Positions 39,993 to 40,386 of a stretch of 64,000 nucleotides of DNA are shown here, piece by piece. The position numbers and the translations under genes are program-made. The stretch is from the NCBI GenBank assembly GCA_025964775.1, contig JAOPYE010000009.1:62001-126000 (forward strand), given 5' to 3'. Position 1 is the first letter of the stretch. The number at the start of each line of letters is the position of its first letter. Under the pieces are notes generated by a model. The model made no database searches. It saw only the letters and a list, made by a program, of their open reading frames with translations, and was not told the origin of the DNA. The DNA comes from Marmoricola sp. GTDB lineage: Bacteria; Actinomycetota; Actinomycetes; Propionibacteriales; Nocardioidaceae.

Positions 39993-40076
39993 TGCCCCCG
40001 GCAGGATTCGAACCTGCGGTGCCCTTGCGGGTACGGGGTAAAAGCCCGGAGTCATCGGCCACTAGACGACGGAGGC
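39993..40076 (-). tRNA. non-canonical tRNA, TTT anticodon (Lys by anticodon), extended ~15-nt variable region
   Basis: GCCTCCGTCGTCTAGTGGCCGATGACTCCGGGCTTTTACCCCGTACCCGCAAGGGCACCGCAGGTTCGAATCCTGCCGGGGGCA; loop CTTTTAC; acceptor and T stems pair; isotype uncertain. Confidence 0.75.
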
Positions 40077-40091
40077 AGGTCGCGTTTCGAG

Positions 40092-40165
40092 TACGCCGCC
40101 CGGGATTCGAACCCGGAATCCACGGAGTAAGAGTCCGTTGCTCTAGCCAGTTGAGCCAGCGGCGC
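40092..40165 (-). tRNA. tRNA-Lys (CTT anticodon)
   Basis: ACGGA-CTCTTAC-TCCGT anticodon arm; CCGGGTTCGAATCCCGG T-arm. Confidence 0.9.
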
Positions 40166-40207
40166 AAATCAGGTGTGGTCGCGGGCGTCCAACCCTGCCC
40201 GCGCCGG

Positions 40208-40242
40208 CTGCCCAGGCTGCCCAGGCAGGCTGCCCAGGCAGG
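40208..40242. repeat. 13-bp tandem direct repeat of the tRNA-Asn 3' end (2 full + 1 partial)
   Basis: CTGCCCAGG / CTGCCCAGGCAGG / CTGCCCAGGCAGG. Confidence 0.85.
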
Positions 40243-40302
40243 GATCGAACCTGCGACCTCCCGGGTAACAACCGGGCGCTCTACCAACTGAGCTACTGAG
40301 CA
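40230..40302 (-). tRNA. tRNA-Asn (GTT anticodon), divergent second copy
   Basis: TGCTCAGTAGCTCAGTTGGTAGAGCGCCCGGTTGTTACCCGGGAGGTCGCAGGTTCGATCCCTGCCTGGGCAG. Confidence 0.88.
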
Positions 40303-40315
40303 CTGTGTTGCTGCG

Positions 40316-40386
40316 TATCCCCACCGGGACTTGAACCCGGGCGACCGGACTGAGAATCCGGCAGGCTGCCGCTACCTCATGGGGAC
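40316..40386 (-). tRNA. tRNA-Glu (CTC anticodon), divergent body
   Basis: GTCCCCATGAGGTAGCGGCAGCCTGCCGGATTCTCAGTCCGGTCGCCCGGGTTCAAGTCCCGGTGGGGATA; CCGGA-TTCTCAG-TCCGG arm. Confidence 0.85.

Follow-up and report, generated by a model that had tools for sequence, protein, structure and literature searches.

The window, meaning the whole 64,000-nucleotide stretch of Marmoricola sp. DNA that was analysed, contains a short array of four tRNA genes on the minus strand (39992-40386, 395 bp), followed on the same strand by a gene for an HNH nuclease. The features of the locus are listed by position.

38696-39439, plus strand: left flank, PIG-L family deacetylase gene (Pfam PIG-L, 1.5e-24)
39442-39909, minus strand: HNH nuclease gene, 155 aa, GTG start (Pfam HNH_5, 2.8e-13)
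39447-40819, no strand assigned: inserted segment of about 1.37 kb, in place of 8 bp at the empty site of the nearest relative (G004)
39937-39981, minus strand: candidate decayed fifth tRNA (GCATCCGT...TTCGACTC...ACGGATGC), read from the sequence; weak
39992-40076, minus strand: 85-nt tRNA, anticodon TTT, with a long variable arm, loop CTTTTAC and A73 (ARAGORN, Rfam)
40091-40165, minus strand: tRNA-Lys(CTT), loop CTCTTAC (ARAGORN, Rfam)
40228-40302, minus strand: tRNA-Asn(GTT), loop TTGTTAC (ARAGORN, Rfam)
40315-40386, minus strand: tRNA-Glu(CTC), loop TTCTCAG (ARAGORN, Rfam)
40465-40516, minus strand: hairpin resembling a terminator (GGGCCGCTC...GAGCGGCCCTTTT), upstream of the array, read from the sequence
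40798-41751, minus strand: right flank, serine/threonine dehydratase gene (ncbifam PRK08246, above cut-off)

As the initial annotation had described, four tandem minus-strand tRNAs, all lacking an encoded CCA, precede the HNH gene; they were detected by ARAGORN on the window and by Rfam, with scores of 51-70 bits (cut-off 29). The HNH gene begins 82 nt past the last array tRNA, with AGGAGGT upstream of its GTG codon. The candidate fifth tRNA is located between the TTT tRNA and the HNH gene and has a local fold of -20.6 kcal/mol; neither ARAGORN nor Rfam detected a tRNA there. A consensus scan found no sigma-70 promoter, and no GOLLD or other Rfam RNA was found near the array within the window. 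The upstream hairpin, whose loop is longer than the limit of the consensus hairpin scan, was not flagged by that scan. Two further copies of the final 9 nt of the array tRNA-Asn (TGGGCAGCC) lie immediately downstream (40206-40236), perhaps a footprint of slippage or recombination.

The genome (G000; 3.9 Mb, 94% complete) has 47 tRNAs. Genes for Lys-CTT, Lys-TTT, Asn-GTT, Glu-CTC and Glu-TTC were found outside the array, so that all four array anticodons are duplicated. All array tRNAs are far in sequence from their housekeeping counterparts, including the Asn-GTT gene identified by ARAGORN at 44071-44146, which had been noticed earlier as a housekeeping copy very different from the array tRNA-Asn. 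In the anticodon loop (positions 32-38), the array and housekeeping sequences were TTGTTAC versus CTGTTAA for Asn, CTCTTAC versus CTCTTAA for Lys-CTT, CTTTTAC versus CTTTTAA for the TTT tRNA and Lys-TTT, and TTCTCAG versus CTCTCAA for Glu-CTC. Position 38 differs in all four pairs: the housekeeping tRNAs have A, the array tRNAs C (Asn, Lys-CTT and TTT) or G (Glu-CTC).

A resemblance to tRNAs of other HNH-linked arrays was seen, clearly for Asn and Lys-CTT and by loop only for Glu. The array tRNA-Asn scored 0.72 against the tRNA-Asn of the array at L337, compared with 0.36 against its own housekeeping counterpart. Lys-CTT is closest to Lys tRNAs of the HNH arrays L150, L151 and L312, and resembles the Lys-TTT of the last of these. 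The Glu-CTC loop TTCTCAG is the commonest in the collected HNH loci (7/16). For the TTT tRNA, which has a Glu-like D arm by pairwise alignment, no clear relative was found among the sister-array tRNAs, and because of its 85-nt length and long variable arm the label Lys reflects the anticodon only. That it is a mistranslating class II tRNA was considered and set aside, as other arrays commonly hold long-arm ordinary tRNAs. Variable arms that are often long and class II-like were also seen in Asn, His, Trp, Cys and Met tRNAs of viral-contig and phage arrays (L246, L249, L264, L276, L202, L206 and L119). All four array anticodons (CUC, GUU, CUU and UUU) have U at position 35; a bias towards U35 was rejected as post hoc, other reduced arrays having no such bias.

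The nearest relative, G004, has flanks 95% identical to those of the window and no cassette: on its contig, the equivalent of position 39446 (PIG-L) is followed by 8 bp and then by the equivalent of 40820 (dehydratase). The two genomes therefore carry present and absent alleles at a single site, between two convergent genes. Elsewhere in the genus the cassette was absent from the homologous site and none was syntenic (23 genus genomes). The insert comprises the HNH gene minus its stop codon, which falls within the left flank, the four tRNAs and a 433-bp leader; the final codons of the dehydratase lie within the insert, and its C-terminal codons are unlike those of G004. The GC content of the insert is 64.8% versus a median of 69.1%, the 11th lowest among 627 windows of sequence. 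Neither terminal repeats nor a target duplication could be seen at the insert. The HNH gene and the array are thus one foreign insert of approximately 1.37 kb, and we hold both the identity of the array and its lateral insertion with high confidence, although the cassette could conceivably be ancestral and have been lost from G004 rather than gained by G000.

This clean empty site supports the mobile origin suggested by the initial annotation. Its further proposal, that the array is a phage or plasmid remnant, received no comparable support: the insert contains no phage or plasmid genes, and its nearest relatives are chromosomal arrays. Similarity to phage DNA was limited to short matches spanning one or two tRNA genes and at most 36% of the array.

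In the HNH protein, the catalytic residues D97, H98, N112 and N121 and the Cys pairs were invariant or nearly so in an alignment of 67 homologues built without plasmid and phage rows, with H98 and N112 invariant; the nuclease motif is intact and its DH/Cys framework kept. G004 carries an HNH gene 83% identical to that of the window, without tRNAs, at another place in DNA missing from G000. Relative to that copy dN/dS was about 0.16, and by this measure the gene is under purifying selection. The two proteins paired in the HNH tree (support 100/99), and the clade that holds them mixes array-linked with solo genes. The AF2 model (pLDDT 91) has as its closest solved folds DNA-cutting HNH domains of the Cas9 and McrA types, and the HNH domain is close to that of IscB/Cas9d. 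The N-terminal half had no Pfam match; weak fold matches of the protein model to IsrB/IscB were obtained (E 0.14-0.2), IsrB itself being without an HNH domain. Among IscB-family relatives, the IshB type consists of PLMP and HNH domains with no RuvC. The protein of the window is likewise small, with a conserved N-terminal domain and an HNH domain near that of IscB/Cas9d; against this comparison, no terminal repeats were seen at the locus, and a PLMP domain would be a tentative assignment for its N-terminal half. We give even chances to the HNH protein acting as a mobiliser of the neighbouring tRNAs.

The link between arrays and HNH genes asserted in the initial annotation held in a wider survey, with homologues inside phage, plasmid and chromosomal arrays and with the Asn and Lys-CTT tRNAs nearest to those of other arrays. 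A same-strand tRNA was present within 500 bp of 25 of 135 dereplicated chromosomal HNH homologues against an expected 0.6% (p = 5e-29, a value that ignores relatedness and is inflated in significance by it). Chromosomal arrays with a homologue inside or adjoining were found in Kribbella, Actinoplanes, Virgisporangium, Micromonospora and Amycolatopsis, and plasmid arrays with a homologue in Frondihabitans, Paenarthrobacter, Mycolicibacterium, Mycobacterium, Tsukamurella and Acidiphilium; phage examples included Microbacterium phage Cece, together with many viral contigs. Among plasmids the HNH-holding arrays had up to 37 tRNAs, and one in a phage had about 50. The HNH family is therefore strongly tied to tRNA arrays. 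The tie is not obligate, since 118 of 140 chromosomal loci had no array; the homologues of Streptomyces are among the majority without a nearby tRNA, and a permissive Rfam scan found no hidden tRNAs near the solo genes. In sister pairs such as window/G004 and L282/L283, one HNH gene has tRNAs and the other has none.

Within the Nocardioidaceae, the HNH-linked arrays form a graded series of 29 (L318), 26 (L312), 8 (L323), 7 (L319), 6 (L337), 5 (L322) and 2 tRNAs (L320). The smallest HNH-linked loci of the family have one tRNA; where this is a lone Leu-GAG, its sequence shows it to be a housekeeping copy. In the window the order runs Glu, Asn, Lys-CTT, HNH, in agreement with L318, and its Asn, Lys, HNH part agrees with L337. 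Sister arrays cover other amino acids, often all. The anticodon arm of the tRNA-Asn is common to the window, L337, L312 and arrays in G210, G305 and G309, and is thus preserved across diverged arrays. Among 299 family genomes the TTGTTAC arm occurred in seven tRNA genes, all seven in arrays; the remaining four matches to the pattern had no tRNA. As the pattern includes stem bases, this distribution speaks for common descent more than for selection on the loop. The six-tRNA arrays of G309 and G210 (L364 and L366) are collinear with L337 with no HNH gene adjoining, and an HNH gene is present on the same contig about 40-90 kb from the array.

In the locus L077 the protein encoded between the tRNAs and the HNH gene is the RNA ligase RtcB (L077:7688-8929). 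An rtcB gene adjoined the HNH gene in 12 of 22 chromosomal array loci (L077, L078, L082, L083, L086, L088, L142-L144, L148, L152 and L312) versus 1 of 118 solo loci; nine of the twelve belong to one Kribbella clade, and after collapsing the figure was 4/14 (p = 4e-4). No RtcB was found in the G000 genome.

HNH genes have been reported as the commonest protein genes of mycobacterial tRNA arrays (Morgado and Vicente 2018, PMC5966550), a finding repeated by a later study that also proposed an anti-defence role (Yano 2026, PMC12803027); in M. avium arrays the HNH gene is the single conserved protein gene (Morgado and Vicente 2018, PMC5966550; Yano 2026, PMC12803027). The mycobacterial units, which occur on plasmids, phages and chromosomes, and the window share redundant, divergent tRNAs with an HNH gene. 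The mycobacterial units have at least 20 tRNAs for mostly 19-20 amino acids, whereas the 1.37-kb chromosomal insert of the window has four, serving 3-4 amino acids. Tran 2016, as quoted in PMC5966550, defines a tRNA array unit by at least 20 tRNA genes and at least 2 tRNAs per kb. With four tRNAs per 395 bp the window lies within that density and below that number, and was therefore classified as a reduced relative and not as a tRNA array unit. It does show the traits of HNH-linked arrays, namely an adjoining same-strand HNH gene of the family and redundant, divergent tRNAs. HNH-linked arrays are thus already described, and the window is a reduced, chromosomally inserted variant.

The Anabaena PCC 7120 trn operon on pCC7120delta (L351) also has redundant tRNAs and an adjoining HNH gene, a homologue of that of the window (31% identity), but has 24-26 tRNAs and is on a plasmid. 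The operon is silent in normal growth, is induced by translation-targeting antibiotics and favours survival; its repressor, TrcR, also represses rtcB and the HNH gene all8564 (PMC10272220), which we read from its plasmid position as the HNH gene adjoining the operon. The Anabaena rtcB is thus in the same regulon, and in the open-licence literature RtcB was tied to arrays only in this way and not as a gene neighbour. The rtcB adjacency, the 1.37-kb cassette with an empty-site partner and the graded Nocardioidaceae series appear to be new in that literature. In T4-type phages the homing endonuclease SegB amplifies an adjacent tRNA gene, overcoming tRNA cleavage by Septu (PMC13096335). The SegB region resembles the window in having a free-standing endonuclease gene adjoining tRNAs, which there counter a tRNA-cleaving defence, but SegB is not of the same HNH family. 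Phages under attack by a tRNA-cleaving defence can be rescued by tRNAs of their own (van den Berg 2023, PMC10264068; PMC11555353). Those of van den Berg 2023 are, like the tRNAs of the window, redundant and with anticodon loops unlike those of the host; the window differs in being on a bacterial chromosome with no phage genes.

On balance we favour the reading that the locus is a reduced chromosomal HNH-linked tRNA array, acquired as one cassette and holding a spare set of tRNAs. The cassette would have been acquired in one piece between the two convergent genes; the HNH protein would work as a free-standing endonuclease of the homing type, spreading or amplifying the tRNAs beside it, and the array tRNAs would be kept in reserve for translational stress or cleavage of the housekeeping set. 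Relatives with an adjacent RtcB would gain tRNA repair as well; G000 has no RtcB, and its array is down to four tRNAs. By analogy with the systems above, a reserve or anti-tRNase function of the array is plausible, at slightly below even odds. The recurrence of altered loops in sister arrays would fit the resistance to anticodon nucleases raised in the initial annotation, and the alterations may also be plain divergence. The genome encodes three PIN-domain proteins. More tentatively, the HNH gene, array and rtcB could be a module that recurs in actinobacteria and helps them survive damage to tRNAs, with nuclease-resistant spare tRNAs, RtcB ligating cut tRNAs and the HNH protein moving or amplifying the spares; the window would be its smallest inserted form.

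The tRNA genes of bacteria are often clustered, which might suggest an ordinary, vertically inherited housekeeping cluster. The isoacceptor listing and synteny check proposed at the outset went against this: every array tRNA is redundant, the nearest relative has an empty site and none of the 23 genus genomes is syntenic, so that such a cluster is refuted and keeps a negligible probability. An improbable explanation is that the array supplements codon supply or tRNA dosage with extra tRNAs for GAG, AAG and AAC, which would be heavily used in a GC-rich genome. Three of the four array anticodons do read G/C-ending codons, but a housekeeping copy is present for each, sister arrays serve other and often all amino acids, and copies of host tRNAs would be expected rather than divergent ones.

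A neutral relic, in which a former large array of plasmid, phage or chromosomal origin was inserted and is decaying, with idle tRNAs and a selfish HNH gene, is unlikely but a more serious contender. It would account for the graded loss of tRNAs across relatives, the sister HNH pairs of which one member lacks tRNAs, the candidate decayed fifth tRNA and the lack of RtcB in G000; the four cloverleaves, however, score within the range of the other tRNAs of the genome, the anticodon arm is kept over diverged arrays and the HNH gene is under purifying selection. Slightly less credible even than supplementation is that the HNH protein is a tRNA-cutting toxin or defence nuclease, similar to the Septu HNH protein, with the array tRNAs and RtcB as immunity. 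Cleavage of tRNA-Tyr by Septu does depend on its HNH motif (PMC13096335), and RtcB adjoins the HNH gene in several arrays. Nevertheless, the 118 of 140 chromosomal HNH loci without an array argue against an obligate immunity partner, there is no ABC ATPase partner at the window locus, and the closest solved folds cut DNA. On the spare-set reading, HNH-linked arrays of phages, plasmids and some bacteria may sustain translation once normal tRNAs are damaged. The survey joins HNH genes, divergent tRNAs and, in relatives, a tRNA-repair ligase in bacterial chromosomes, and, as tRNA arrays have no agreed function, the locus offers a tiny, clean present/absent genome pair for testing one.

Two further observations were made. 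The dnaG gene (DNA primase; 44735-47650 in the window) has an intein-like insertion with a LAGLIDADG domain. The G000 tRNA-Leu(TAG) and tRNA-Leu(TAA) genes (C29:16012-16087 and C45:1246-1321; L039 and L036) measure just 76 nt and lack the long variable arm that a bacterial tRNA-Leu would be expected to have; their homologues occur genus-wide.
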